50,355 nt of DNA, from the IMG/VR virus record IMGVR_UViG_3300017963_000345, positions 1 to 50,355 of that record, one strand, 5' to 3'. A program made the translations under genes and the position numbers. Each line of letters begins with the position of its first letter. The stretch's first letter is position 1. The DNA comes from a virus. The notes under the pieces are model-generated. The model was not told the DNA's origin. It ran no database searches and saw nothing but the letters and a program-made list of their open reading frames with translations. Below are positions 68 to 43,135 of this stretch, one piece after another.

Positions 68-1744
68 TTACTCCAGAACGCCGAAGTATGGATCAGGCAG
101 TAGACCAGGGTCATCGCCGCCGTAAATCGGATGGTTTGGTTTTACAGGTGAAGAGACCGTATGATCGATTCTAATGGTAGATAGTAGTTTTGTGTCTGGA
201 CCTTCGTAGCAACACTCTTGATTTTGCGGTAGCAATGTTTCATCTGTATAGGTGTCCAGACAACCACCGCCATCGAGTCGTTTCGATGTAGATGTCCCTG
301 ACCAGTAATCAGTAAGTTGGTCTATATCATACGTAGAATCAAAATTGCCGCTCACCTGATGAAGAGAAAACTTGTGCTTCAGGTCAATCAGGAAATTCTC
401 TACGTCGGTTTGTGTTGATGAAGCGGTTACGGTGAACGAAAGAGTGTTTGCGGTATCTGCTGGAGAGTGAATCGTAGTATCGGCCAGGTGGGCCGCGTAT
501 ACTGTAGCAGCATCCTGACAGAAAGCAATCAACGTTGGTAAATCTGAAGGCAAGGCAGCAGTGATTTGATGACTACCTCCAGCCGCATGATGCCAAGTAG
601 GTGTAGCATCTAGATCATGAGCATTGAAGTCAGTTTTGATTTCAGTAGACAACGTGATGGCGGTGGCCTGGTTGTAAGCATCTTCTGACGTTACTACATT
701 TGTTTCGTCAGAGAGCAAGTGACCCGCGACATCAAACGTACCAGAGTCAAGGAATTTGTACGCTCCTATACCGGGGTACTCAACCTGCATATCGAACGGA
801 TTAGCCCAAACACAAAAACTGGGGTAGGCGTTTAGTTGCATCGCCCCAGCAAAGGTCAATCGGTCCATACAACCAATTGCGTCCAACAGTCCGCGAAAGC
901 TGCATGCCTGCCCAGTGTTGTCGAACAAGTGTTGTTGGTAGATCTCAGAACCCGGCTGAGTGATCATGATTTTGTTTTCGTCAAACGAAACCAGGTCCCA
1001 CTTGTCGGAGTTGTTGATGTAACGTAGGAATGCATGCCATCGGTGTAGACACAGGTTAGGTATCCACACGTGAAAGTCCCAAGCTAGCTGATCGTCCCCG
1101 GATGTGTATGGTTGGTACAACTCTGGCTGCCATACTGTGGGATTTCGAGACTCTACCACCACAGGAGTCGTCGAGGTGAAGACACTGACGAAGTCGCGTA
1201 CTCCACCTTCTCGGGTAGCCTCACCGAACATAGTATTGGCGGCAGCTTTGAGCGACATACTACGAAAGCTGCGAACGTCCGGTAGCTCTTTCCGCCAAGG
1301 AATCAGCCACTCGATTACGAAAGACGACCAAGGCGATGTCCAGAGGTTGAAGTACTTATCTGTGATTCGTCCAGCAACCTCGTAGTACTGCTGAGCCAAC
1401 GCATCCATCAACGTGACTAAGAAGGTCGCGACTACAGTCAGACTTACAGGAGCATCAATGCCGTTGTCTACCAGTATGTCGTTACGTGCAGGTGGCTCTG
1501 CCAGAGGCAACGTAACTACATCTCGCTCACCTCTGGGTACATGCGTTTTGACGAGCCTACCGTTGATAAAAATGTTTACGGGAGCAGCTGTGTCGGTAAT
1601 CAGAACAAACGGGGATTCATCAATCGAACGAGGAAGCATCTCGTCGATTGTCTGCAAATAGAACGAGCCCGCCGGGATGATGTTGACCATCCCCTCCCTA
1701 ATATCGTCATGCAAACGGTCGTCTGGGTAGAACTCGAGAGACAC
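68..1744 (-). CDS. Baseplate-associated structural protein (558 aa), downstream of baseplate J
   Basis: A large acidic protein translated directly after the baseplate-J gene; its GTG start shares one base with the J stop (TAGTG), and GGAGTA precedes it. In P2-like and other myophages this place downstream of J is taken by a baseplate or fibre-connecting protein, so I infer a baseplate or tail-tip role. I do not recognise the N-terminal half. Residues about 365-458 form a His- and Ala-rich module (FNAH, then YAAHLADTTIH, then ADTANT) that also occurs in the structural protein at 38216-38884. The C-terminus is Cys- and Pro-rich (ECCYEG, GGGCLD). No signal peptide or membrane segment is visible. 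Virion protein is likely; the exact role is unknown. Confidence 0.7.
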   Translation of the reverse strand: MSLEFYPDDRLHDDIREGMVNIIPAGSFYLQTIDEMLPRSIDESPFVLITDTAAPVNIFINGRLVKTHVPRGERDVVTLPLAEPPARNDILVDNGIDAPVSLTVVATFLVTLMDALAQQYYEVAGRITDKYFNLWTSPWSSFVIEWLIPWRKELPDVRSFRSMSLKAAANTMFGEATREGGVRDFVSVFTSTTPVVVESRNPTVWQPELYQPYTSGDDQLAWDFHVWIPNLCLHRWHAFLRYINNSDKWDLVSFDENKIMITQPGSEIYQQHLFDNTGQACSFRGLLDAIGCMDRLTFAGAMQLNAYPSFCVWANPFDMQVEYPGIGAYKFLDSGTFDVAGHLLSDETNVVTSEDAYNQATAITLSTEIKTDFNAHDLDATPTWHHAAGGSHQITAALPSDLPTLIAFCQDAATVYAAHLADTTIHSPADTANTLSFTVTASSTQTDVENFLIDLKHKFSLHQVSGNFDSTYDIDQLTDYWSGTSTSKRLDGGGCLDTYTDETLLPQNQECCYEGPDTKLLSTIRIDHTVSSPVKPNHPIYGGDDPGLLPDPYFGVLE

Positions 1745-3171
1745 TACTCTACTCCAAAGTTCACCGATAGGGTCGGATACTCAGTCAATCCGTTCAGACT
1801 GATGAACTCAATGTCTTGCTTGGCGTCGTCAAGTCTAGCAAAGTGGGTGAGCTTGAAGTTCTGTACTCCATCCACAGAACCTTCTACAGCACGCTGATAG
1901 TCAGTTGGATCCAAATAGGTAACGAACTGCTGATAGGCCTGAGACGGGTTATTTGGGTTTCGTAGATAACCTTCGGTGAAGGTACGAACATCAGAAATTA
2001 TATCGTCCTTGTCTGTAGTGACGAACGTTGTCAGCTCTCCTGCTATGTAAATATCGATCGAGTCTGCCAGCCGAACCAAAGTGTCGCTGCCGAATAGTTT
2101 GAAGCGATCTTGCAGCAGGGAGTTGACGTTGTAAACTACGTCAAAGTAAACGTAACGTACTTCCCATGTTTGGCCTGGCTGGAGAGGTGTAGCCAACTGT
2201 ACGCGATCGTTAGCTGACGGTGAGCCACGCCAAGCTGCATCAGTATCAACATCCAAAGAGAAAGGAACTACAACACCGTCCACCGCGACAAACACCACGG
2301 ACAGGACAGGCTTTCGTTGAAAAGTAAGGAACGTCTCTCCACCATCGGCGACACCACGATCAATAGTCTCTCGAGTCCTATCGGTGATCATGTAGATATC
2401 GTAGCCGAGCTTACCTGATGTCTGTCCTAGACGGCTGTAGTTAACGTAGTCCGTAGAAGGAATGGTAGAGTAGTCATCAACACCAGTAGGACTGATGGAC
2501 GTGATGATGTTTTCTAGCTGGCCCGCGGCGTCCTGGTTAGCTCCCTGCATGGCAGCCCACAAGATGTCTCGCATCTGGTATTTGTCTGGAGGATCTTCAC
2601 CTTGACTTGCATAGTCTCTATTGACACACCCATCAAAGTCATCCTGCACTGTTTGGATTCTATTGATAGTGTTGGGAGGAAGATCGTAATCAACGCCTGC
2701 AGCGATAGCTTCGCACAGTACAGGAATTTCGTAGTTTCCTGTACTGGAGTTAAAGTAGTAGTCAGCCAAGTCTCCATTCATCTCAGCGTCTTCGATGACG
2801 GTAAAATTGAATCTTCCGTCATCGGTACTTACGATGGTTCCGGTAGCGGCGGTGTAGGTGACTCCAGCTTCGGGTCGAGTGGAACGAAAGAAATACACTG
2901 TTACTTGGGAAACTCGAGCTACGTTTGGATCCTTACCGAAGTTAAGCGCCAGCTCGAACATGTCTTCGTCAAGAATCAACGAAGGGTCTTGCAGCTGGTA
3001 TAATCGGCCCAGGTACGCAGCAAAGTTCTCCATACGAGAACCTTCTACAGAGGCGCCATAGATCAACGTGGCTAGTGGACCTTTCTGTACGTCGATACGA
3101 GAGTCGTTAGACGTAACAGACGCGGAGAGGTCAGTAAGGAAGCCGTCAATGTCTCTAGGTGATTGGGGCAT
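1744..3171 (-). CDS. Baseplate J-like wedge protein (T4 gp6 / P2 gpJ family)
   Basis: A 475-aa protein with baseplate-J features: an N-terminal helical part ending near GKDPNVARVS, a central beta region where G-x2-YTAATGTIVST precedes a glycine- and aspartate-rich strand pair, and then AAGVDYDLPPNTINRI, matching the conserved 'G..YN.p.gtI..i' segment of the family. In T4 and P2 this protein joins wedges around the hub and drives baseplate reorganisation on host contact. The start is ATG with AGGATCTC just upstream. It lies between a gp25-like gene and the 558-aa gene, the usual W-J-I order of myophage baseplate operons. Confidence 0.82.
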   Translation of the reverse strand: MPQSPRDIDGFLTDLSASVTSNDSRIDVQKGPLATLIYGASVEGSRMENFAAYLGRLYQLQDPSLILDEDMFELALNFGKDPNVARVSQVTVYFFRSTRPEAGVTYTAATGTIVSTDDGRFNFTVIEDAEMNGDLADYYFNSSTGNYEIPVLCEAIAAGVDYDLPPNTINRIQTVQDDFDGCVNRDYASQGEDPPDKYQMRDILWAAMQGANQDAAGQLENIITSISPTGVDDYSTIPSTDYVNYSRLGQTSGKLGYDIYMITDRTRETIDRGVADGGETFLTFQRKPVLSVVFVAVDGVVVPFSLDVDTDAAWRGSPSANDRVQLATPLQPGQTWEVRYVYFDVVYNVNSLLQDRFKLFGSDTLVRLADSIDIYIAGELTTFVTTDKDDIISDVRTFTEGYLRNPNNPSQAYQQFVTYLDPTDYQRAVEGSVDGVQNFKLTHFARLDDAKQDIEFISLNGLTEYPTLSVNFGVE

Positions 3172-4263: not shown

Positions 4264-6639
4264 TTAGATGAAGTCTTCTATGGCGTCGGTAAGAGCGCCG
4301 AGGGGGGACGGAAAGCAGCTGGAGTTGGTTTCGGCATCCTCGTCTATAGTTTCTTTGGTGTCCTGAACATCTCCAAACAGCTCCTTGATGGCTTTGTCGA
4401 ACTGATCCACTAGTTCGATCTTGGCCTCCACGGACTGACCAAGTTCCTCCATGACCTCTTTAATACCTCGAGTAACTTCATCGGTGGTGGATGTTACGGT
4501 CTCTTTTATGCTGCCGGTGAACTGCTGAACCGTTTCTTCTACCGTCTCGGTAGGTAAAGTAGTAGGAGCATCCTCCAGACTAGGAATAGTAGACAAAGCG
4601 CCCGTCAAGTCGGTAGAAGCGTCAATAATAGACTGCACTGTTGCTGGAGGACAAGACAAATCAGGAGAAGAAGCATCTTTGCAGGGGTTAAGCAGTCCGC
4701 CAAGATCAAAACCTGTCAGGCTTCCCAGCAGCTTCTGGACGATACACAAAGGTACTTGGATCGTCTTCATCATGGCTTCGAACGCATCAGTGATGGTTTC
4801 GTCTAATTCAATAGACAGACTTTTGAAAGCTTCCTTCAATAGGTCGGTTGGAAGGGGTAGCCCTCCCAGAATACCAGACAAGTCAGGCAGAGAGTTTCCG
4901 CCGCCAGAGCCTACTGCGGGTAGATCGGGTGCACCTGTGTTTGCTGTGCCGGTACCTAAGAGGCACTGGGCGAGATCGTTACCGAATAGGTTGTCTGTAA
5001 GGCTAGCTACGTTCTGTACTTTATTGAGGATGCTTGACACTGTCTTGGTCAAGCTTCCTACCATCACATCGAAGATACGGTTAGCAAAACTAATACCGCT
5101 ACTGAGGGCACCGTAAGCGCTTTCTATCTTTTTGGCTGGATCTGGCAACTGATCAAAAGGTAGGTTGGGCAAGTCTAGGTTGCTTAGGCCTGGAATCTCA
5201 AATCCATTGATGTTATCAGCAGACAAACGAGACTCAGACCTGGCACAAGCTTTGCCCCTAGTAGACAACTCTTTGGATAAATTCTGGTCATCCGTCAGCT
5301 TAGATACATCCACAGCCTGTAAAGCCACGATGGGCGACTTGACTTTATTGGTCGTTCCGTTGCTTTGAACGGTCGGTTTCTTGGTAAGCAGCCTCGTCAG
5401 TGCCTCTACTCTATCGCTCATAGGAACCTTGTGGGGTATTTTTACTCCGTCTACCTGCAGCTGTAGCAGTTCCTCCAACTCAGCGTCTGTGAACAGGAGA
5501 TCATCCAACAAGGTGAGACTCTCAACCAAGTCCACCTCGGGCGCTTGCTCGTCCAGATAGTCTTCCTGTACCGCGTCATCGCCGCTCAATATCTCTCCGA
5601 TATAGTCTTCAGGGATACCCCAACGAACAAGCTTGTCGTAGGCGGCTTGAGTAGTCTTTACCTGCTCCGGCCAGAATATGTAGTGGTGCAGCGACGTAAC
5701 ATCCCCACCATAAGTAGCCGCAGTGGTATTGATGTTCGTATCGATGTTTCTGTACATCTCAGCTACTGTCGATATTGGTTGAGTTACTCCACAGATATTC
5801 TGGTATGTGGTAGTGGTTACGTTCTGCGTGGTCAACATAGTAGGCAAAGCTACCTGCATTCCCGCCAGAATCTCTTTGGTTCGCTGCAGGTTGTTGCCTG
5901 TCTTCTCGTAAATTTTGTTGATCGCAACCAAATTGGTTCCATCTATGATCAGCAACTTCCCGTTGACGATGGTATACTCGTCTTCGCTTTGGATATAAGC
6001 AGCCAGATCAGCCTCGGTTTCGATGACTGGTATATCTACCCCACGCATCAACTCCTGGTAAGTTGGTTGACTGAAAGTCTTAGCCACGCCATCGGCTGCA
6101 TTTTCAGTAGCTGTGACGCTGCGATCCTTACCACCAGCAAGGTAGGTGGCTCCGGTAGGCTCATTGGAGTCAGTACCAGCGCCCACCAACGTGCCTTCAA
6201 CCAAAGCAGCCACATCGGGAACGTTGTTCCAAAAAGTTAAGTCGGTAGCAGCGTTGGCAGAAATAACGCCGGACACGTCGGAAGACAGATACAGCGTTAT
6301 AGTGTTTCCATCTACAGCCGCACCAGGAAGGCGCGGATTAAGTGTAGCAGGAGTAGTTGTGGTGTCGACTGCAGGTCCTAGGTACACATATGATATGTTA
6401 ATCTGATTTCCTTGGCGACCAGCCTGCTTGGCAGTCCATTTGATTTGGTTATCAATTGTACTACCGATAGTAACTGAAGCCGCTACAGGATCACCCAATA
6501 AATCATTGAGTGCTGTCTCCACCGTGGCTAGCTGTTGGTTGAACGTCTGTCTGACTTCGTTCTCAAGGTACTGTTTTAGCGTGTTCAGCGCCTCAGTGGC
6601 TTCATCATCTATAGTACATCTTTGGTATACAGAGGGCAT
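4264..6639 (-). CDS. Large structural protein with tail-sheath-type Gly/Asn domain (791 aa)
   Basis: The N-terminal 40 residues look like a coiled coil. Residues about 52-170 resemble a domain common in phage sheath and adhesion proteins: a TAKxAGxxGNxI start, a D-G-N-x-I-T-x-Y-L strand, AAL-V segments, and a closing TYLAGGKD. The central third (about 230-420) is mixed alpha/beta. The C-terminal half is rich in Leu, Pro, Ser and Thr with paired cysteines (CLLG, NPCKD, SCPP, SSCFP) and a long helix near residues 700-765. It lies between the spike and the wedge genes, so a baseplate or tail-tip role is likely. SD is weak (GGTGA). The match to the sheath-type domain is by eye; the overall function is unknown. 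Confidence 0.65.
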   Translation of the reverse strand: MPSVYQRCTIDDEATEALNTLKQYLENEVRQTFNQQLATVETALNDLLGDPVAASVTIGSTIDNQIKWTAKQAGRQGNQINISYVYLGPAVDTTTTPATLNPRLPGAAVDGNTITLYLSSDVSGVISANAATDLTFWNNVPDVAALVEGTLVGAGTDSNEPTGATYLAGGKDRSVTATENAADGVAKTFSQPTYQELMRGVDIPVIETEADLAAYIQSEDEYTIVNGKLLIIDGTNLVAINKIYEKTGNNLQRTKEILAGMQVALPTMLTTQNVTTTTYQNICGVTQPISTVAEMYRNIDTNINTTAATYGGDVTSLHHYIFWPEQVKTTQAAYDKLVRWGIPEDYIGEILSGDDAVQEDYLDEQAPEVDLVESLTLLDDLLFTDAELEELLQLQVDGVKIPHKVPMSDRVEALTRLLTKKPTVQSNGTTNKVKSPIVALQAVDVSKLTDDQNLSKELSTRGKACARSESRLSADNINGFEIPGLSNLDLPNLPFDQLPDPAKKIESAYGALSSGISFANRIFDVMVGSLTKTVSSILNKVQNVASLTDNLFGNDLAQCLLGTGTANTGAPDLPAVGSGGGNSLPDLSGILGGLPLPTDLLKEAFKSLSIELDETITDAFEAMMKTIQVPLCIVQKLLGSLTGFDLGGLLNPCKDASSPDLSCPPATVQSIIDASTDLTGALSTIPSLEDAPTTLPTETVEETVQQFTGSIKETVTSTTDEVTRGIKEVMEELGQSVEAKIELVDQFDKAIKELFGDVQDTKETIDEDAETNSSCFPSPLGALTDAIEDFI

Positions 6640-6643
6640 ATCG

Positions 6644-7861
6644 TCACCGAGTGAACCTGACTTCGGTCGATAGAACAGAAGACATAGAACCAGACAAACT
6701 ACCTAAACCAACAGACAGGGTAGCTAAGGCGGCTTGACTCGCGCCGGATAGATTAGTATCCGCAGCCAAAATGGATGTAGCTGATTGCATCATACTAATC
6801 AACGGGGTCAGTATTGTAGTGGTCAAGGCGGTACCCAACACAGCCGGCTGGGATGGAGCAGAACCAAAACCAACACTAGAGCTGTTGACCTGTACCTTAG
6901 GAGATCTGAACGTAAGGCTGGTACCATACTTCTGGGTGCTTGACTGCACGACACTAAAGTCTAGTTTCTTCGACGTGACCTTAACATCGTTTTTAGGCCC
7001 AAAATCCAGGTCGGTGGTCTTGGCTTTTGAAGTGTTACGTAAGATCATGTTAAGCTCTTCATCTATATCGAACGTCAAATCACCCTGTTGTCGGTGAGCT
7101 ACGTAACGACGTAGACGAAGAGCTTTATTGGTCTGTGAGTTCTTGATAGGTTGCTGTGAGGCATCGTATAGATGACCTTCATGCAGATTGATTAAGTCTT
7201 TGCCTTCATCGTCACGAATCCACCTACCGTACTCGTACTGGAACTGATCCCCCGATTTTAGATATACCTGCCTCGAGTACGGTTTCTCAGTGTCGGCCCG
7301 TTTGACTAAACCAAACCGCTCCTCGTGCGCCAATTCGGTTGGGTCGTTTTGGTCCAACTGACGTTTGTATGTCGGAGAACGAGAGGTAAGCTCCAGCTCC
7401 GTCTGCATAAGGTTGTGTTCTACGATTCCACCCAAAGCGGACAGGTCTCCATCTTCACTAAAATGCTGGTATGCATATTGAGGTGTCATCACCTCAATTT
7501 CCCCAGGACGAAGCTCACGAAAGATGAGGTTGTTTGAGTCATCTTGAGCCTGCTTTACCAGGCCGCCTTGATGGTGGTCAACGTAACCCCAAATCTCTGC
7601 TTGGCTGGGCTCACGTATCTTCTGCGTTACTACCTTTACGCCAGCCTCTGGCATAGCCCTGATCCAACTGTTACGTCCCATGAACGGATGCCGCACCGTC
7701 ATAGACGTAGTGCCGGGTTCTCCGTACATCTCCACCTTGACGGTTTCTATCTCAGGCTGCACCGACCTAACCACACCCCTTACCGGAATATGCGCTACCT
7801 TAGATGGGGCATTTTCATCCTGCTGTCGCGCTTCGCGTAGGTCTATACGTGTAACTGCCAT
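6644..7861 (-). CDS. Baseplate spike / gp5-VgrG-like OB-fold protein
   Basis: A 405-aa protein. Residues 25-95 (VRGVVRSVQPE, then VKVEMYGEPG, then VRHPFMGRNSWIRAMPEAG) fit the OB-fold of gpV/gp5-type spikes: five strands with an 'R.P..G' turn. The middle has repeated beta segments (LTSRS, LKSGDQFQYEYGRW, DLTFDIDEELNMIL, DVKVTSKKLDF), as expected for a trimeric beta-helix. The C-terminus is a small-residue helix (about 345-395) ending in VRFTR. Such spikes pierce the outer membrane and hold the hub. The ATG overlaps the hub stop as TAATG, so the two are probably coupled, which fits their physical contact. Confidence 0.75.
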   Translation of the reverse strand: MAVTRIDLREARQQDENAPSKVAHIPVRGVVRSVQPEIETVKVEMYGEPGTTSMTVRHPFMGRNSWIRAMPEAGVKVVTQKIREPSQAEIWGYVDHHQGGLVKQAQDDSNNLIFRELRPGEIEVMTPQYAYQHFSEDGDLSALGGIVEHNLMQTELELTSRSPTYKRQLDQNDPTELAHEERFGLVKRADTEKPYSRQVYLKSGDQFQYEYGRWIRDDEGKDLINLHEGHLYDASQQPIKNSQTNKALRLRRYVAHRQQGDLTFDIDEELNMILRNTSKAKTTDLDFGPKNDVKVTSKKLDFSVVQSSTQKYGTSLTFRSPKVQVNSSSVGFGSAPSQPAVLGTALTTTILTPLISMMQSATSILAADTNLSGASQAALATLSVGLGSLSGSMSSVLSTEVRFTR

Positions 7862-10800
7862 TAGTCTTTGTTTGCTCCACGGTTGCCTCGCTGCTTAGTA
7901 CCAGCCTTAACTTTAGCGTCTAACTTGCGGTGAGTCTTCTCTGTATACGCCCTACCGCCTGTTTGTTGTGGTGTGCCGCTAACGTCTTTGCGTTGAGTCA
8001 ACTTAGCCTTGTTGGCTTTGAACGTAGTGTAGCAGGCACGTTTAGCCGCCTTCTTTTTCCGCACGTTGCCTATCTTCCTAGCTGAACCTACGCAAGCATA
8101 GTACTCAAGAGAAATCTTCTGTCTCAATACAGCGCTGTTATTTCCACACACACTAGAACCAGTCGCAGTATCGAAGTAGTTTTCTGGTCTAGCTTCTCGG
8201 TACGCCTTGTACTTCTCGGCAAAGTCCTTGATGATTTGCTCTGGACGAAAGAAGAATAGTGGGTTGGTTTGAACACCCCAGTCGTTTGGGTTGACCGACC
8301 ACCGGTATTTTTTAGACCTACTCAACATGTAGTCTACAGCTTGATCCACCGTAGTTATCTTCGCTCTGCCGGAGCTATTAAGTCGATCAAAATAACGCTT
8401 CCACTTCGAGCTCAACTGGTTTTTGTTTACGTTGTTAACACCACCAGTAAGCTTCATCTTCATCTGAGTACGTAAAAACTCATGGTTGGTTTTCAGTATC
8501 TCTTTGTAAGCAGACGTGTCTCCACCAGCTCTATCCATACCCGAAAACTCATGAGCTGGGATCTTAGCTCCAGGCCTATATACCAACATACCGAAGTGAA
8601 GGTGAGACTGTACGGTCCCAGACGATCCCACCTTTACGAAAGGAGTGTCAGGCGGAATGGACCTGATGTCCTTAGGAGTACCAGGATCTCCGATCCAATA
8701 CTTCTTTCCACCACTCTGATTGGGATAAGGGATAAGATCACCGCAGTGAACGTAACTAAGCCGACAAGCCAGTTTAGCTTGGCTGTTTCCTGGCAGCGTA
8801 ACATACCCAAACGCCTGCACCACCAGACCACTGTGAGACCCGTAGTTGCGGTTAATTTTAGGCTTGAACTTGTACTGCTCTTTTATCTTGTCGTAGATGC
8901 CTTTAGTTACGCCATCTAGTTTGAATTTAATTCCTTGACCGTCAGAAGTGTATTTGAATACATAAGAACCACTTTTTTTGATAGCGAACAACTTATCGCC
9001 CTCAGACGGCGGTCCCAGTATGGCGGCAGTGGTTGGAGGCGCCTCCAAAATAGAATAGGTGCGAGACCATATGTACTTATTGGATGGGTACCTGGTGAAA
9101 CCAGTCCCTATCATAATGTTAGCAGCATGTGCCGCTATAGGACAGTAAGCCGTTTTGCCGTGAATACCGCTACCGTAGAAGTCAACACCAGAGTGCCATC
9201 CCCAGAACTTCCCTTTATGGCGTCTACGGCCTCCATACTTGTCCTTGCCTTTGAATCCATAGTTCTGGCTAGATAGTCTTCCGTTTGGATTGACGTAACG
9301 GTAGAAACCCCACTGGTTGAACTCGCGGCTGGTTTTCTTTGAAGATCGGCCATACGGCCACGGATTATATAAGTTGCCGTAGTAGTCGCTTGACGCTTTG
9401 GTTTTGGTTGGGTTGTTTTTGTCTACCCCTCCGGACGTAGCGTAGCTTAGACTAGTGTTGTCCAAGGAAGCGGCTGACTCTGGATTACCTTTGTTGGGTG
9501 GAGGCCGCTGAGTACGACTGGCGATGTAATTGGAAGCACCTCTAGGCTGAACAGGCAAAGAACCAGCAGATCCTCCAGCGCCTTGTGTTTGATTGGTATA
9601 GGTCTGAGCCTGCCTGAATGTAGTGTCAACCTGGTCGGCGTAACTGTAGCTAGCAGACAGCCATCTATCTTTAAGATACGGGCCACAAGACCAATTAGTA
9701 GCATCACGTGGTTTACGCTGGCCGGTTGTCTCCATTACTGATTTCCGCAGTGCCTGGGATTCTAGCCCTACCGTCGCACCTCGAGCAGCTCGAGCAGCAG
9801 CCGATAGTTTATTGCCAGGCAAGTTAACAAGCGGATTGGACCCAAACCGGATATTCTGACTTACATCTCCGGTAAACAAACCACTGTAGTCTACTGGAAG
9901 TCTAGTGCCACCTGCCATGTGACGGAACGTACCATCGTTGTTGAGTCCACGTACATAATGAAGATCTAACGAAGTAGTACACTCACCCAAAGGCACCATT
10001 GAGTAACTCACCGACTTAACCAACGCCATCCTCTGTCTATGTACCACATGAGTAGGACGATTGGGTAGCATGAACGGACGAAAGTCGTGCTGAACCGACG
10101 CAGCCTCCATACGACCAAGTTCTCGCTGAATCTCGAGCAAACCAAACGCTATACGAGTAGCCTCACCTTGGCCGGTAGAGCCTTCGTTCTTAAACACACT
10201 ACCTACACCAGGCAGCTTGATGTTGATGTTACGCACACGCACGCCGACACGACGAGCCAAAACGTTGGCTACGATAACGGTCTTCTTGTACGTATCTTGC
10301 ATCAACTGGCTGCCAGTAAGACCCTCCAGAACTCGCTCTGTTTCCTTGCCTGTTATGATCCAAGCAGTGTTCAACTCGCCTTGCTCTGAAGCTAACTTGA
10401 AGCTCCGTATACCCTTAACAACAGTGTATGCTCCCTGAAAGATCCGACCGTAGTCGTAAGGCAGAGAGTTATAGTTGGGAAACTCGAAAGACAGGTCCCC
10501 GTACGGAGTTACATAGAACTGGTAGTCAAGCGTCTCGCACAGCTCGTTAAGTAACTCCAACCGTGTCTGGAAGTCATACGTAGTAGCCCCAAAAATGTTG
10601 TGCGTGATATCCTGCTGTACAATCGACAAAGCGCCAGTACCATTCGTAGGCAACAGCATGTGCATAAACGCATGCAGCGGACTGTACGGAGCTTTCTGTG
10701 GATCAGAATCACCGTGAGACTTCGTGCCTACCTCCGTAACCTCACGATAGGTCAGCGGCCTCCCGATGACGCCAAACACCATATTTAGATTCCACTTCTG

Positions 10801-13164
10801 AAGAGCTTCTCTATCGTACGCTTTGAGCTTATCTTCATACCCCTTGGAGATAGGCAAGTGGGTGAGGGTGAGCCACTCAACCGCACCCTCAAAACTCATC
10901 CCGGCTAGCGGATGTGGGTTCTTGTTGGCGGCCCGAATGAGATCGCCGTACATACCTACCGCTATTTGGTTGAAGCGTGCAGTAGTATGCGTAACATCAG
11001 CCACAGTGGAACTAGACTCGGAATTCTTGGTGGGGTTGTTGGCTCCCTGCCGTCTAGCTTCCTCTATTTTTTTACGAACCGAGTCGTTCTCTGCCCTACG
11101 CCGAACACTACTGTCTTTGCGTAAAGCCTGAACCTCGGCCTGCTCGGCCTTTTTCAATTCGGATCGTATCTGCGCGTATAGATCGTTGAACCGCCTGACA
11201 GCGTCATCTATCTTAGCTTTAGCGACCTTAGACTTGGCTATAGATCCTCCATTCTTACTGACGTACTGAGTAAAAATCTTAGATACCTTGGCTATAGCTC
11301 CTGTCTCAAGAATAGCAATAGTACCACCAGCAGAAGATAGCAACAGTAGTTTAGCAGTATTGAAAGTAGCTAATATATCTCTGTCCACTTCAGCCTGTAT
11401 CTTACCGGGAACGTCGGAGAAGAAACCGCGCACAGTAGTCAACACATACTGATTGAGTAGGTAAATTCTATTAGTGTTGGGGTTCTCAGCAAACTTTGCG
11501 TTTTTGTAGATATCTGGATACTGACTACTGACGGTATTATCCAGAGAGGACAGCCCAGGATTAACCAAACGAAATATGTTGTTTCTCGGTTGGGGGTTGC
11601 CTAAATCAACACTTGATGTAGTCTGAACAAAGCGGTTGCTGTTGTATTCTCCTAAGTACAACGCAGCTACGTCGGCCGCCTTCTTACCGGTGGTCAACAA
11701 AAAGCTATTGGCTTTCTGGATAGCCTCATCGGCACTAACAAAAGTCTTGGACGAGTACTCAACTTTGATAGTGTCCTTACCGGTCCTCTTCAGAATCCCG
11801 ATGACACCAGTAGCATCCTTCAACTCAGCCAACGATTTAACTATTCCACTGAACACTTCAGGTTGCTTATCTGCACCTAGCTTAACTGTACCTCCAGCAT
11901 AGATAGACTTCATCTGAGCGACCAAGTAGGCTACCTTCCCTCTAATGTCGTCTTGAGCCTTTTTGGTGCAAGCATTATAATTCTGCCCCTTCGTACACTG
12001 AGCAGTAAAAGCAGCTGACACAGCCGCGTTGTACAGTGCATTTAGATCTCTATTGATACCTAAATCTGAAGTTACGTCTAAAAACGACTGTGTAGAAGAT
12101 ATGCCTTTGCTTTTATCTTTTTTCGCTTGCTCTCGCTGCTCTTTGAAGACGGCAGAGTTCTGGTCTTCTCTGCTTTTGCCGTCAGAAACGGATGATGTAG
12201 GCTGCATCCGCACCCGCATACGATTGAGGAGCCCACGCCAGTCGTAGCACCTAATGTTCATCAAGCGATCACCCATAACCGGGTCATCCTCGAAATCGTA
12301 CTCGTCTACGAAACCTGTAAACGCAGGAGCCCACAGCTCATCTACCTGCTGTCCTTTGATGTTCGGGCATGGGTAGTCTTTGCTGCCTGGAATTTTGCAT
12401 AGACCGGTGATATGCGGAAGGCGGTAGAACACCCTAACGCAATCATGCTTATTGATTACACTGTGAAAGGGGTTCAGGGGATATAACCAGAAACCCGCTT
12501 CATCGATTTGCTGGTCAGCCGCTCCAGGTCGAATGCGCTCATACTTGCGTTTGTAAATCAGGTACTTGGCAACCTCATCGGTGTTGCGGGTGATTCTACC
12601 AGGGGTGGTTACAAGTCTCTTCTTTCCTGCTAGAGGCACTCGCCAACCGCTGAGATCTAGCTTTGAGCAGACGTTGGCTGGAGTCAGAATGAACGCATCA
12701 TGGTTGTTGTTGAGGCTAAACGTACAAGTGTTCATTCCACCTGTAGTCTGAAGCGTCCACGACATAGCACCACGAACGTATGGCGTCACCTCTACACCCT
12801 CAACGAAAACGCGGAACTCGCACTCGCGCACACTGTAGTTCTGCTCTCTAAAAACTATGTGGCGAAGCTGGTCGCAGATCCATTTCTTGTTACCTCGAGA
12901 GTTACCGCCGTAAACAGCGGTCGAGGGATAGCAGCGATCACCACCTAACCCGTTCAAAGCTAGGCGGCGCCTATTGTAACGAGACACACGCTCTCTTAGT
13001 TTGCGGGCCTCCAGTAAAGCCAACTTATAATCAGCTCTGGCTTTGGCTTTAGCTTGAGTGGACGTACTGGCGGTTTGTAGTGCCTGCCCGACCGTAACTT
13101 GGTTGGCTTTGTTGGTCTTAGCTTTGGAGGGTGTAGTACTGGCGGGTTTGTTTGGGTTGGCCAT
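7861..13164 (-). CDS. Giant baseplate hub protein with M23 endopeptidase domain (1767 aa)
   Basis: Residues about 110-320 look like a hub (gp27/gpD-like) region: VFVEGVEVTPYVRGAMSWTLQTTGG, FTGFVDEYDFED, IRCYDWRGLLNRM. A long helical, Lys-rich linker follows (about 330-770), then a second hub-like block around 770-1130 (SKGYEDKLKAYDR, LSFEFPNYNSLPYDYG). Near residue 1323 HSGVD and near residue 1519 HLHFG supply the H-x3-D and H-x-H zinc ligands of M23 (LytM) peptidases, so residues about 1290-1540 should be a peptidoglycan endopeptidase. The C-terminus is strongly basic. This is a hub that carries its own tail lysin, expected to cut the wall during DNA entry. It overlaps both neighbours (TGATG, TAATG). 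Confidence 0.85.
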   Translation of the reverse strand: MANPNKPASTTPSKAKTNKANQVTVGQALQTASTSTQAKAKARADYKLALLEARKLRERVSRYNRRRLALNGLGGDRCYPSTAVYGGNSRGNKKWICDQLRHIVFREQNYSVRECEFRVFVEGVEVTPYVRGAMSWTLQTTGGMNTCTFSLNNNHDAFILTPANVCSKLDLSGWRVPLAGKKRLVTTPGRITRNTDEVAKYLIYKRKYERIRPGAADQQIDEAGFWLYPLNPFHSVINKHDCVRVFYRLPHITGLCKIPGSKDYPCPNIKGQQVDELWAPAFTGFVDEYDFEDDPVMGDRLMNIRCYDWRGLLNRMRVRMQPTSSVSDGKSREDQNSAVFKEQREQAKKDKSKGISSTQSFLDVTSDLGINRDLNALYNAAVSAAFTAQCTKGQNYNACTKKAQDDIRGKVAYLVAQMKSIYAGGTVKLGADKQPEVFSGIVKSLAELKDATGVIGILKRTGKDTIKVEYSSKTFVSADEAIQKANSFLLTTGKKAADVAALYLGEYNSNRFVQTTSSVDLGNPQPRNNIFRLVNPGLSSLDNTVSSQYPDIYKNAKFAENPNTNRIYLLNQYVLTTVRGFFSDVPGKIQAEVDRDILATFNTAKLLLLSSAGGTIAILETGAIAKVSKIFTQYVSKNGGSIAKSKVAKAKIDDAVRRFNDLYAQIRSELKKAEQAEVQALRKDSSVRRRAENDSVRKKIEEARRQGANNPTKNSESSSTVADVTHTTARFNQIAVGMYGDLIRAANKNPHPLAGMSFEGAVEWLTLTHLPISKGYEDKLKAYDREALQKWNLNMVFGVIGRPLTYREVTEVGTKSHGDSDPQKAPYSPLHAFMHMLLPTNGTGALSIVQQDITHNIFGATTYDFQTRLELLNELCETLDYQFYVTPYGDLSFEFPNYNSLPYDYGRIFQGAYTVVKGIRSFKLASEQGELNTAWIITGKETERVLEGLTGSQLMQDTYKKTVIVANVLARRVGVRVRNINIKLPGVGSVFKNEGSTGQGEATRIAFGLLEIQRELGRMEAASVQHDFRPFMLPNRPTHVVHRQRMALVKSVSYSMVPLGECTTSLDLHYVRGLNNDGTFRHMAGGTRLPVDYSGLFTGDVSQNIRFGSNPLVNLPGNKLSAAARAARGATVGLESQALRKSVMETTGQRKPRDATNWSCGPYLKDRWLSASYSYADQVDTTFRQAQTYTNQTQGAGGSAGSLPVQPRGASNYIASRTQRPPPNKGNPESAASLDNTSLSYATSGGVDKNNPTKTKASSDYYGNLYNPWPYGRSSKKTSREFNQWGFYRYVNPNGRLSSQNYGFKGKDKYGGRRRHKGKFWGWHSGVDFYGSGIHGKTAYCPIAAHAANIMIGTGFTRYPSNKYIWSRTYSILEAPPTTAAILGPPSEGDKLFAIKKSGSYVFKYTSDGQGIKFKLDGVTKGIYDKIKEQYKFKPKINRNYGSHSGLVVQAFGYVTLPGNSQAKLACRLSYVHCGDLIPYPNQSGGKKYWIGDPGTPKDIRSIPPDTPFVKVGSSGTVQSHLHFGMLVYRPGAKIPAHEFSGMDRAGGDTSAYKEILKTNHEFLRTQMKMKLTGGVNNVNKNQLSSKWKRYFDRLNSSGRAKITTVDQAVDYMLSRSKKYRWSVNPNDWGVQTNPLFFFRPEQIIKDFAEKYKAYREARPENYFDTATGSSVCGNNSAVLRQKISLEYYACVGSARKIGNVRKKKAAKRACYTTFKANKAKLTQRKDVSGTPQQTGGRAYTEKTHRKLDAKVKAGTKQRGNRGANKD

Positions 13165-15752: not shown

Positions 15753-15797
15753 CTGTGGTAAGCTAAACAAAGAAAGCAAGCGGGTCGAGCTTTTGTG

Positions 15798-15826
15798 TTG
15801 ACATGCTCATGTATTTCAGTTATCAA
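15798..15826 (+). promoter_or_regulatory. Sigma70-like promoter for the plus-strand accessory operon
   Basis: TTGACA at 15798-15803, a 17-base spacer, and TATCAA at 15821-15826 (4 of 6 to TATAAT). A transcript would start near 15833, about 13 bases before the ATG at 15846, keeping the GAGGAGG ribosome site within a very short leader. Confidence 0.65.
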
Positions 15827-15845: not shown

Positions 15846-16013
15846 ATGGAACTCACAGACAGGCAGATCGATCAGGTTACTTTGGTGATCAAGATGCTCC
15901 GGGCGGACGCGGATAGCCACCGAAACAAAAAAGACTGGGATCGGGCCGGTTATTTGGACGGACGGGCGGATGATCTTGAGGATAGCTTGGATGAACACAG
16001 GAAAACCAAATAA
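15846..16013 (+). CDS. Small acidic/charged protein, first gene of accessory operon (55 aa)
   Basis: Fifty-five residues starting MELTDRQIDQ, highly charged and predicted helical, with a C-terminal GYLDGRADDLEDSLDE stretch. It is preceded by a very strong ribosome site (GAGGAGG, seven bases before ATG) and by a sigma70-like promoter, so strong early expression is expected. The TAA stop overlaps the remnant of a QV-repeat gene that follows. I do not recognise a family. Small, highly expressed early proteins of this kind often act on host machinery, but nothing in the sequence shows a target. Confidence 0.7.
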   Translation: MELTDRQIDQVTLVIKMLRADADSHRNKKDWDRAGYLDGRADDLEDSLDEHRKTK

Positions 16014-16080
16014 CCAACTGGGTTAAAGGTCAAGTCCATGGACAAGTCCGCGAGCGGGTTTGAGGCAAGTCAACGTATAA
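16010..16080 (+). pseudogene. Broken QV-repeat gene (copy A)
   Basis: From 16010 the frame reads ATA then codons for TNWVKGQVHGQVRERV, then TGA at 16061-16063. This matches the opening of the two intact family members (MTNW, I or V, K, then QV repeats). The start codon is ATA rather than ATG. Restoring one base after TG at 16062 (TGAGG back to TGGAGG, the sequence used in copy B) continues the frame as W-R-Q-V-N-V and stops at TAA 16078-16080, directly followed by the next ribosome site, as in copy B. Two small lesions therefore explain the loss. A single G to A change would have altered both this start (ATG to ATA) and the previous gene's stop (TGA to TAA). Confidence 0.7.
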
Positions 16081-16525: not shown

Positions 16526-16974
16526 AAAACCAACCAGCAACAGCATTAGAAAAAGCTCTAGAAGTTGCGTACCAAGCACACCAAGGACAACGTAGTTTCG
16601 CGGGGAGACCTTATATTTTTCATCCTATCAGAGTGATGGAGCAAATGGACACCGACGAGGAGCGTATCGTAGCGTTGCTGCACGATACCGTCGAGGACAC
16701 CTACGTTACGTTGGATCACTTGGCTGATTGGTTCAGCTCAACGGTCGTGGAAGCGGTAGACGCTTTGACCCACAGAGATGGTGTTCCGTACCTGGAGTAT
16801 ATCGAGAAACAGGTCGCGCTCAACCCGTTGGCGACTAAGGTCAAACTGGCGGATCTGCAGGACAACATGCGCGTAGATCGTTTACCGAAAGTAACCGCAG
16901 GCTCAGCCAAACGGCTTATTCAATACGGACAGGCGGTTCAAATTCTGAAGAGGAGACAACATGAGCTACGTTAG
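16522..16974 (+). CDS. MESH1/SpoT-type HD hydrolase, probable (p)ppGpp 3'-pyrophosphohydrolase (150 aa)
   Basis: The 150-aa frame starts at a GTG overlapping the preceding stop (GTGA), with GAGAGGA just upstream. It has the full metal and catalytic set of RelA/SpoT hydrolase domains in the right order and spacing: H34 in FHPIRV, H54-D55 in LLHDTVEDT, E58-D59, and D111 with N115 in VKLADLQDNM. Its length and lack of a synthetase domain fit small alarmone hydrolases and MESH1. The predicted reaction removes the 3'-pyrophosphate from (p)ppGpp, using Mn2+, in the cytoplasm; MESH1-like enzymes can also act on NADPH. In an early phage operon this would blunt the host stringent response; that role is inference. 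Confidence 0.82.
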   Translation: MKNQPATALEKALEVAYQAHQGQRSFAGRPYIFHPIRVMEQMDTDEERIVALLHDTVEDTYVTLDHLADWFSSTVVEAVDALTHRDGVPYLEYIEKQVALNPLATKVKLADLQDNMRVDRLPKVTAGSAKRLIQYGQAVQILKRRQHELR

Positions 16975-17455
16975 GTCGATCTCCCCAATCCCACTTGATG
17001 AGCCATGTAGTACGTGCGGGCGCTTGGACGAAAGTCAGTATCCCGGTGATTGGTTTGATCGAGAAGAAGCTTGCTTCGACCACCAGATGCGGTGGGCCAA
17101 CGGGCCGTGGTGGTGTCGCTGGCTTAAAAACTTCATTCAGTTGGCGTTCAGACGCAAAAGGGGAGGACTGACCGGTCGCCCTGTACGCTGGATGTTCCGC
17201 CTAGACAAGTACAGTAATGGGTTCTGCCCTGAGTGTACCTCTCACTGGTACATCTGGGCGGACGAGAACAAACTGCACGTCTGGGCCTCCCAAATCGACG
17301 ATCTCCCAGCCTATTCGGTTGAGGAAGTCAAGGAAATCGTCGAGCAGGAGGACTACCAGCGGATCCCTGGATTCGATCTGTACGGTGACCAGGGGGTTCT
17401 GAAAGCATCACTGCTTGCATACTTGGAAGACGAAGCAGGAGAGGAGTCACGATGA
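16961..17455 (+). CDS. Trp/Cys-containing protein of accessory operon (164 aa)
   Basis: Starts at ATG with GAGGAGAC upstream, inside the last codons of the HD hydrolase gene. It has two Cys pairs, CSTC near residue 16 and CPEC near residue 89, separated by a Trp-rich basic region (WANGPWWCRWLKNF), so a split zinc ribbon is possible. The C-terminal half is acidic and helical (VEEVKEIVEQED). Its stop overlaps the ATG of the QV-repeat gene as ATGA. I do not recognise a family. Confidence 0.75.
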   Translation: MSYVRSISPIPLDEPCSTCGRLDESQYPGDWFDREEACFDHQMRWANGPWWCRWLKNFIQLAFRRKRGGLTGRPVRWMFRLDKYSNGFCPECTSHWYIWADENKLHVWASQIDDLPAYSVEEVKEIVEQEDYQRIPGFDLYGDQGVLKASLLAYLEDEAGEESR

Positions 17456-17622
17456 CCAACTGGATAAAAGAGCAAGTAGTCTATAGACGGGTTTATGAGC
17501 GAGTCTGGAATCAAGTCACTGACCTAGTCTGGAGGCAAGTCGATTGGCAAGTCGGTAGGCAGGTCCGTGGGCAAGTCTGGGGGCAGGTCAAGAGGCAAGT
17601 CCTGTTAAACGAACGTAGATAA
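17452..17622 (+). CDS. QV-tetrapeptide-repeat protein, copy B (56 aa)
   Basis: A 56-aa basic protein that opens MTNWIKEQV and then consists of four-residue units whose last residue is nearly always Val and whose third is usually Gln (NQV, WRQV, DWQV, GRQV, RGQV, WGQV, KRQV), ending LLNERR. The unit is a 12-bp DNA repeat in which Q-V is mostly CAAGTC. The first half is more diverged (RRV, ERV, DLV) than the second. A four-residue period with Val at every fourth place could make a hydrophobic stripe on an extended helix, or a beta structure; the fold is unknown. The ATG overlaps the previous stop, and AAGGAGACAAC follows for the next gene. It is a paralogue of the genes at 42909-43100 and 16010-16080. 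Confidence 0.8.
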   Translation: MTNWIKEQVVYRRVYERVWNQVTDLVWRQVDWQVGRQVRGQVWGQVKRQVLLNERR

Positions 17623-41931: not shown

Positions 41932-42912
41932 TTGCCTGAAGTCAAAAACGTATACACGAACAAAGTCAACCGGGGATCTCCTTACCAGAGAACTCAGACG
42001 TCGCTGGAACAGCTAATAGCTAAAGCTCATGCCGCTCTGGAGAAAAACAAATTGGACGTGTTGGGTAAGCCTAGGCTTATCCGTCACGCTCGCGACTCAA
42101 TGGTAGTGACTACCACCGCTTGGAACAGGTACAGCCCAGAGAATGGCATCTTTCTTTATGCCAATCCTTCGGACATGCGCTGGTCTATGCCGCGCCGTGG
42201 AACCAACATCAAAACAGCAGCCGGCACCGTACGTAACGTTTGGAGAAACCGCTATCGTGGTACCTACTACGACGAGGGTACCGTAGGGATCACGTTCCAG
42301 TCGGGCAACATCATGCCTGCGATGGGCTACCAGGACAATATCGAATTGAGTACGGCTGATCGCGTCGCGCAGGCGGTAGCTGCTCCTAGGGTACCTCCAG
42401 GGTTATTGAACTTCTACAAATTCATCGAGCTACTGGACCAGCCGATGTTGCTTGGTCCGGCAGGCAACCGTCATGTATTGATTCATCACAGTCGAGTGTT
42501 TCCAAATTTGTACATGGAAGGTTACTTCTTAGAGGACAGTTTCAACTTCTCTGAGGTGTCGACTGACGGCAACCGTCTGCAGTGGGAAGCAACGTTCCAG
42601 ATTTATCGTACTGAGCCTCCCTTGTACGGCAGCAGAGCCGCTAATGGTTTAATACAAACCTATCAAGGTTGGATCAGTAACTCGGCACAGGATGAACAGA
42701 TTGGTTGGGAGAACTTAACTCAGTATCTGTACGTTGATGGCGTTAGCGACCTCCCAGGAACGTTCCCTGCAGGCAATCCCAAGCAAGGCCCTACTTCAGC
42801 CAAACAACCCACCACGGTTGCGTCGCTGTCGGACAAACAGAAAACACTGGTAGATCAAGCGGTCAACAAAGTCAAAAACGATCGTTCGATAGCTCCGCTG
42901 TTCGGGTTTTAG
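41932..42912 (+). CDS. Probable tail/baseplate structural protein (326 aa)
   Basis: Starts at TTG with AAAGGA eight bases ahead. The central part contains RRGTNIKTAAGTVRNVWRN, then GTVGITFQSGNIMP and NFYKFIELLDQP, FPNLYMEGYFL, FNFSEVSTDGNRLQWEATFQIYRTEPP: strand-rich, with a charge pattern often seen in tail-tube or baseplate-adaptor proteins of myophages. The C-terminus is helical and basic. It ends the rightward block, its stop overlapping the end of QV-repeat copy C on the other strand. The family is not certain. Confidence 0.65.
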   Translation: MPEVKNVYTNKVNRGSPYQRTQTSLEQLIAKAHAALEKNKLDVLGKPRLIRHARDSMVVTTTAWNRYSPENGIFLYANPSDMRWSMPRRGTNIKTAAGTVRNVWRNRYRGTYYDEGTVGITFQSGNIMPAMGYQDNIELSTADRVAQAVAAPRVPPGLLNFYKFIELLDQPMLLGPAGNRHVLIHHSRVFPNLYMEGYFLEDSFNFSEVSTDGNRLQWEATFQIYRTEPPLYGSRAANGLIQTYQGWISNSAQDEQIGWENLTQYLYVDGVSDLPGTFPAGNPKQGPTSAKQPTTVASLSDKQKTLVDQAVNKVKNDRSIAPLFGF

Positions 42913-43100
42913 TCACGAACCTGCCTCCGTAGCTGCCCCCGGACTTGCCAATCGACTTGCCCCAGGACTTGCCCCTCGACTTGCTCCCAGACTTGCCCTT
43001 GGACTTGCCCATCGACTTGCCCCAGGACTTGCCCCAGGACTTGCCTCTCGACTTGCCAGTGGACTTGCCAGTGGACTTGCTTCTTTACCCAGTTGGTCAT
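42909..43100 (-). CDS. QV-tetrapeptide-repeat protein, copy C (63 aa)
   Basis: Sixty-three residues: MTNWVKKQV followed by about 14 four-residue units ending in Q-V or a close variant (HWQV, ERQV, LGQV, DGQV, QGQV, WEQV, EGQV, DWQV, RGQL, RRQV) and a final RD. It is a paralogue of the gene at 17452-17622. The DNA repeats every 12 bases with CAAGTC nearly fixed. No ribosome site precedes the ATG; instead a TTGACA/TATCTT promoter ends six bases before it, so the RNA should begin at or next to the ATG and be leaderless. Product role unknown. Confidence 0.8.
   Translation of the reverse strand: MTNWVKKQVHWQVHWQVERQVLGQVLGQVDGQVQGQVWEQVEGQVLGQVDWQVRGQLRRQVRD
42930..43080 (-). repeat. 12-bp tandem repeat, CAAGTC plus six variable bases
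   Basis: Copy C of the QV family at DNA level: Gln is CAA and Val is GTC in nearly every unit, while the other two codons vary (often ending in GG). Such fixed synonymous choice suggests recent unit duplication or selection on the DNA or RNA as well as on the protein. Confidence 0.7.
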
Positions 43101-43106
43101 ATAAGG

Positions 43107-43135
43107 AAGATATCACGAAGGTGGGTGGTTGTCAA
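43107..43135 (-). promoter_or_regulatory. Sigma70-like promoter for QV copy C
   Basis: TTGACA (43135-43130), a 17-base spacer and TATCTT (43112-43107). The usual start point seven bases downstream is 43100, the A of the ATG, which implies a leaderless mRNA. Confidence 0.6.

Follow-up and report, generated by a model that had tools for sequence, protein, structure and literature searches.

We analyzed a window of 50,355 bases, which corresponds to a complete IMG/VR record. It encodes a baseplate-wedge-like protein, a DnaB-type helicase, a ribonucleotide reductase and a RuvC-like resolvase, and the record is probably a fragment of a tailed phage genome. A 1767-aa protein without a PHROG match is encoded amid the structural genes (positions 7861 to 13164, minus strand). 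Relatives of the window were sought through its ATPase gene, which gave one distant locus, and through its helicase gene, which gave none.

Two short genes of the window encode proteins made almost entirely of tetrapeptide units of the type xxQV, with diverse combinations of the two x residues (x1 and x2). QV-repeat gene 1 (P0001; positions 42909 to 43100, minus strand) is built of 12-bp units and encodes a protein of 63 aa (MTNWVKKQVHWQVHWQVERQVLGQVLGQVDGQVQGQVWEQVEGQVLGQVDWQVRGQLRRQVRD), in which an MTNWVKK start is followed by QV and then by 13 more period-4 units, one of them ending in QL. QV-repeat gene 2 (P0002; positions 17452 to 17622, plus strand) encodes 56 aa (MTNWIKEQVVYRRVYERVWNQVTDLVWRQVDWQVGRQVRGQVWGQVKRQVLLNERR). 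Its first QV is offset by one residue from the register of the remaining units, and several of its Q residues are substituted (RRV, ERV, DLV). The two proteins have in common the start M-T-N-W-[VI]-K-x-QV followed mainly by xxQV units, and their lengths lie within the range of the family described below (about 35 to 110 aa). A third copy (positions 16010 to 16080, plus strand) is broken. It carries ATA in place of ATG, an in-frame TGA at positions 16061 to 16063 and lacks one base; it reads T-N-W-V-K-G-QV-HG-QV-RE-RV, then the TGA and the lost base, then QV-N-V, and ends with a TAA at positions 16078 to 16080. In terms of copy number, the window holds two xxQV genes and one relic, i.e., at least two copies in one phage.

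The 12-bp units of the window are built around a nearly fixed core, GGCAAGTC. Searching for GGCAAGTC-N4-GGCAAGTC with up to three mismatches gave 21 matches compared to 0.54 expected from shuffled sequences (largest shuffle, 3), and ACCAACTGGRTAAA, with at most one mismatch, occurred in the window only at the three reported starts. In P0002, the QV frame is the sole frame without stops; P0001 has one more open frame (ASxx), which is closed in the paralogue P0002. The start of P0002 shares four bases (ATGA) with the stop of the gene before it and is preceded by the purine-rich sequence GGAGAGGAG. The relic is alike in this respect, with a four-base overlap (ATAA) with its own upstream stop. P0001 and P0002 are real genes, and the translations together with the 12-bp unit statistics confirm the sequence-only reading, which had reported two genes and a relic sharing a TNW start and QV repeats. 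A predicted sigma-70-like promoter (TTGACA-N17-TATCTT; positions 43107 to 43135, minus strand) lies 7 bases before the ATG of P0001; it is a consensus match only, and about one such site is expected by chance in the region. Since this promoter-like element ends 7 bases before the ATG, the P0001 mRNA is possibly leaderless. Similar TTGACA-N17-TATC[AT][AT] elements are found at this site and before the P0002 cassette at positions 15797 to 15825, the latter being below the threshold of the promoter scan and spotted by eye.

P0002 and the relic are located within a plus-strand cassette (15.8 to 18.2 kb). The same cassette includes a gene for a small HD protein resembling (p)ppApp/(p)ppGpp hydrolases (positions 16528 to 16974, plus strand; PDB 7smg, E = 2.3e-34; HD_4; phrog_990), whose closest solved relative, 7smg, is annotated as a (p)ppApp hydrolase. 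This alarmone hydrolase-like gene is context of the P0002 cassette and not a member of the xxQV family. It would fit a counter-defense cassette, as a single instance that proves nothing. The proposal that the copies lie in early-type regions went beyond the evidence, which reaches only to a position on or beside small strand-switched cassettes.

AlphaFold2 modeled P0001 as one helix spanning residues 3 to 62, with a mean pLDDT of 89.4 and a pTM of only 0.42; a helix is easily predicted for simple repeats. In such a helix, given a period of 4 versus 3.6 residues per turn, the Val stripe would wind by about 40 degrees per unit, beside x1, a geometry that would favor an unusual right-handed supercoil. 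The membrane-active amphipath that had been proposed as one role finds no support: the xxQV proteins have no hydrophobic span, with Asp, Asn, Gln and Arg recurring in all units. A decoy role, proposed as well, is possible.

We then scanned viral contigs for five QV codon pairs recurring every 12 bases, allowing every codon; requiring at least four different x1x2 pairs removed trivial, exactly repeated arrays as well as chance frames (VLAQVLAQV, VQVQVQ). With trivial repeats removed, this IMG/VR scan revealed short stand-alone xxQV genes in at least 22 viral records besides the window. Two or more such genes were present in 15 of the 22 loci among the matches listed, in good agreement with the initial proposal of a protein family with several copies per phage, which proved typical. 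In longer stretches, we counted 10 xxQV genes (L277), 9 (L279) and about 12 (L282), and L283 and L045 together held about 14. Clustered genes are mostly arranged head to tail, often with a few bases of overlap, and paralogues within one phage have the same start and end caps and shuffled middles. Upstream of the QV genes in L013, L067, L096 and L282, the other forward frames of the arrays are often open (KSGT, RSGI repeats), and these open frames continue into the next QV gene.

The TNW start was absent from all other viral contigs in two scans, which may leave out near relatives. It was rejected as a family signature, the three matches of the second scan being chance frames, and a conserved TNW-QV architecture in related phages was thus not found. 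The usual start elsewhere is M-K-S-V-K-x-QV, though not in every member, and the window shares only [VI]-K-x-QV with it. P0001 and P0002 had no significant match in Pfam, PHROGs, NCBIfam or PADLOC, and for stand-alone proteins in these libraries it holds that no named family of this kind exists. Searching isolated phages and plasmids with P0001 by tblastn and blastn gave no real match, perhaps partly as a result of low-complexity filtering; other xxQV members used as queries returned only the Mycobacterium prophage prophiGD102-1 and weak matches. A match to PDB 23fj, an ARID protein, was rejected as a low-complexity PGQ[MLIV] repeat. No stand-alone xxQV gene was recognized among 115 cellular loci matching the viral-scan pattern, where the QV arrays are either trivial or inside large proteins; SLFN_AlbA_2 was matched by two of these large proteins. 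Overall, the xxQV proteins are a widespread unnamed phage family, often multi-copy and fast-changing, present in many uncultivated phages.

Conservation of Q and V was not counted as evidence, because the scan itself requires both. Their substitutions can be read nonetheless: where Val is replaced, the new residue is Ile, Leu, Ala or Met and hardly ever Gly or Asp (2 of the 66 amino-acid changes from GTC; p = 1.5e-6), and Q positions tolerate R, K and H. At x1, 364 of 391 single-base codon differences were non-synonymous (27 synonymous versus 77.5 expected), at x2 337 of 355 (18 versus 79.4), and at V we counted 83 synonymous differences versus 41.3 expected, ratios that are only descriptive, given the lack of independence between codon pairs of one array. 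The favored residues are Trp, Arg, Glu, Met and Tyr at x1 and Asp, Asn and Gly at x2. Diversification of the xxQV units is supported, and so is constraint at the protein level, the lack of which the sequence-only reading had listed among its refuting observations: Val is swapped almost only for hydrophobic residues, and the x positions show a strong non-synonymous excess.

In each array, one QV codon pair tends to predominate, and this pair varies from phage to phage and is unlike the usage in the remaining gene. Because of this, we infer that unit duplication homogenizes the arrays; homogeneity at third positions may stem partly from recent unit duplication. Within the units of stand-alone genes (loci L009 to L125), GTC represents 606 of 729 Val codons, AT-rich phages included, and in L125 it accounts for 31 of 31 array Val codons versus 1 of 13 outside the array in that gene. 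Among Val codons, GTC is the one unable to make a stop in either other forward frame. Turnover of units was seen between close relatives. In 9605 aligned bases, the only difference between L111 and L121, two records of separate data sets, is one 12-base unit in a QV gene. Comparing L076 with L097 over 2144 bases shows a 24-base indel in a QV gene together with two substitutions, and assembly error at repeats is a possible source of both unit indels. The QV genes make up about 10% (L111/L121) and 8% (L076/L097) of the compared stretches. The usual pattern of diversity-generating retroelements is adenine-directed. As a source of x variation, such an element was rejected: x1 codons end mostly in G, x2 codons mostly in T, and second-position C is rare. 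The common occurrence of W, E, M and K at x positions disfavors it further.

Three long viral QV-array proteins were tested, and all three matched PF20530 (DUF6745). In an alignment of the three with twelve others, the array is flanked by an N-terminal part on one side and by the PF20530 part on the other. In the model of a DUF6745 protein, the array was helical at low confidence and flanked by well-predicted parts. A viral 399-aa protein with a QV array (L094, positions 1191 to 2387, minus strand) had no Pfam match and looks unlike DUF6745. A DUF6745 gene was also present in 14 of the 22 records with stand-alone xxQV genes among the matches listed, and in 11 of the 22 it was within about 1.5 kb of the xxQV genes; ten of the 14 DUF6745 genes could be read as open frames, with 0 or 1 QV each. 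The same DUF6745 search matched none of 50 control viral records (Fisher p = 1.1e-9), nearly all of which came from the viral QV scan and carry trivial repeats. The near-identical pairs L111/L121 and L076/L097 bring the independent count to about 13 of 20, and the contrast stands.

This linkage of stand-alone xxQV genes to adjoining, array-less DUF6745 genes is new in this analysis. Since 14 of the 22 listed records have it, DUF6745 was counted as frequent in the xxQV family and not as defining it; it is absent from the present 50-kb record and from 8 of the 22, most records possibly being fragments. Some phages have array and DUF6745 in one protein and others have them as neighboring genes, a pattern that usually signals a functional link, and the two look like one module, fused or separate. 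The suggestion that the QV proteins are interaction proteins is strengthened by this linkage. Among Actinomycetota, DUF6745 was found in 5 of 199 species genomes. One of the five proteins (L302) has an xxAV array (HDAVHGAVDGAV) at the place of the phage xxQV array, and the array type may thus be wider than QV; the array-less ones have other sequence at this site. We found no paper mentioning DUF6745 in our literature search, and a fold search with the DUF6745 model gave no significant match. The matches of a DUF6745 protein to PADLOC 'REase_II' and NCBIfam 'ClfA' were rejected, as both fall in its repeat.

We tentatively hypothesize, at somewhat less than an even chance, that P0001 and P0002 are helical binding modules whose Val stripe is constant and whose surface is diversified, linked to DUF6745 and shaped by host conflict, possibly in counter-defense. 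Each QV protein would form a long alpha-helix, its Val stripe (with Q) being kept constant for pairing or docking and its two x residues forming the diversified surface. The stand-alone array would be the same module as the one located within DUF6745 proteins of other phages, and free arrays would act in trans, most likely with the DUF6745 protein or with one another, as variable binders of host targets, counter-defense being the likeliest role. Over time, 12-bp units would be gained and lost, x codons altered mainly at the amino-acid level, and genes duplicated and lost. The helix is predicted; from the data above we infer the pairing, DUF6745 as a partner, the host target and counter-defense. 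PADLOC returned no match pointing to counter-defense.

The arrays could also be structural spacers or scaffolds, that is, rigid helical rods of adjustable length that join or separate the two halves of DUF6745 or other phage proteins, with x variation tolerated and not under selection. Such a rod would suit an array placed between two confidently modeled parts of DUF6745, the QV-type arrays within bacterial SLFN_AlbA_2 proteins and the different sequence at the array place of array-less Actinomycetota DUF6745 proteins. We consider it doubtful, however, as it leaves unexplained the clusters of at least 10 free genes and the non-synonymous excess at x1 and x2. That the genes are slippage satellites, in which 12-bp repeats expand and contract within dispensable small genes and the frame is kept open with no selected binding function, is unlikely. 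Slippage accounts for unit indels between near-identical phages, for the homogenization of every array on one QV codon pair and for the copy of the window that is already broken, but it does not account for a Val position kept hydrophobic, strongly non-synonymous x changes, start and end caps retained by paralogues, the strong DUF6745 linkage, or arrays without stops although codons a single change away from a stop abound in them.

The proximity of QV genes to array-less DUF6745 genes could instead reflect an antitoxin-like or regulator-like activity, in which QV proteins inhibit DUF6745 (as an effector encoded by the phage itself or by a competing phage) and have diversified to match DUF6745 variants; self-inhibition could then be the role of the array where it lies in cis, as in other phages. 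This is improbable, given that DUF6745 shows no sign of toxicity and is called a toxin by no library, and that QV genes far outnumber DUF6745 genes per phage. A DNA or RNA element, with the 12-bp repeats serving as binding sites (iterons) or as an RNA signal and the reading frame being incidental, is the reading we regard as very improbable. Although the GGCAAGTC core is nearly fixed in the window and unrelated phages, AT-rich ones too, use GTC for 606 of 729 Val codons, the core varies among phages (CAGGTA, CAAGTG, CAGGTT) with QV kept, and the QV frame alone is open in P0002. Furthermore, starts overlap upstream stops, caps are common to paralogues, and the codon differences show a non-synonymous bias.

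The helical binding module would take a broader form, which we regard as rather unlikely, in an undescribed repertoire made of clusters of 2 to about 14 small helical xxQV proteins, with caps that stay constant and surface residues that diversify, which are shuffled by 12-bp units and, with DUF6745 in trans or fused, bind and neutralize changing host factors. If true, it would represent an evolvable phage protein set against host defenses. Similarly, if the linkage and the diversification mean what they seem, a four-residue helical unit would be an evolvable phage binding surface. An unnamed multi-copy family tied tightly to DUF6745 is also a direct handle on the role of DUF6745.

Among known proteins, the phage DUF6745 (PF20530) array proteins resemble the xxQV genes in their period-4 array of diverse units and in codon behavior, with one QV codon pair per array and x1/x2 variation mainly at the amino-acid level. 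They differ in that 7 to 42 units form an insert in a protein of 320 to 570 aa, whereas P0001 and P0002 are the array alone and have no PF20530 profile match. Bacterial SLFN_AlbA_2/Fic-like_C proteins likewise contain a period-4 QV array, but it consists of four to eight near-identical units with hardly variable x residues inside a large multidomain protein. Two SLFN_AlbA_2 proteins (L134, positions 1476 to 2984, minus strand; L177, positions 4754 to 6256, minus strand) carry TAQV/VEAQV-type arrays ahead of a C-terminal Fic-like_C. In Bordetella phage BMP-1, as cited in PMC2884959, the repeat number in variable region 2 of bbp36 varies between isolates and the gene is dispensable for growth; as described there, its 24-bp element and unrelated sequence set it apart from the xxQV genes.

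The mycobacteriophage tetrapeptide-repeat proteins Tweety gp54, Che8 gp57 and PMC gp51 also have a 12-bp unit (PMC2884959). The Tweety gp54 unit contains two constant and two variable residues, most of the variation falls on the first two codon positions, and phages differ in unit number (PMC2884959); unit-number mutants of Tweety gp54 overcome the Phrann gp29/gp30 defense (PMC9262239). The xxQV family shares the 12-bp tetrapeptide unit and the variation in unit number. Tweety gp54 differs in its AAxx unit, in being single-copy and in the unique N- and C-terminal regions that flank its repeat; the xxQV proteins of the window have no terminal regions of the Che8 gp57/PMC gp51 type and show no sign of common descent with Tweety gp54. 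By analogy, the xxQV proteins may work like Tweety gp54, though they are not the same family, and this resemblance to a protein whose unit number is reported to tune counter-defense makes the xxQV hypothesis testable.
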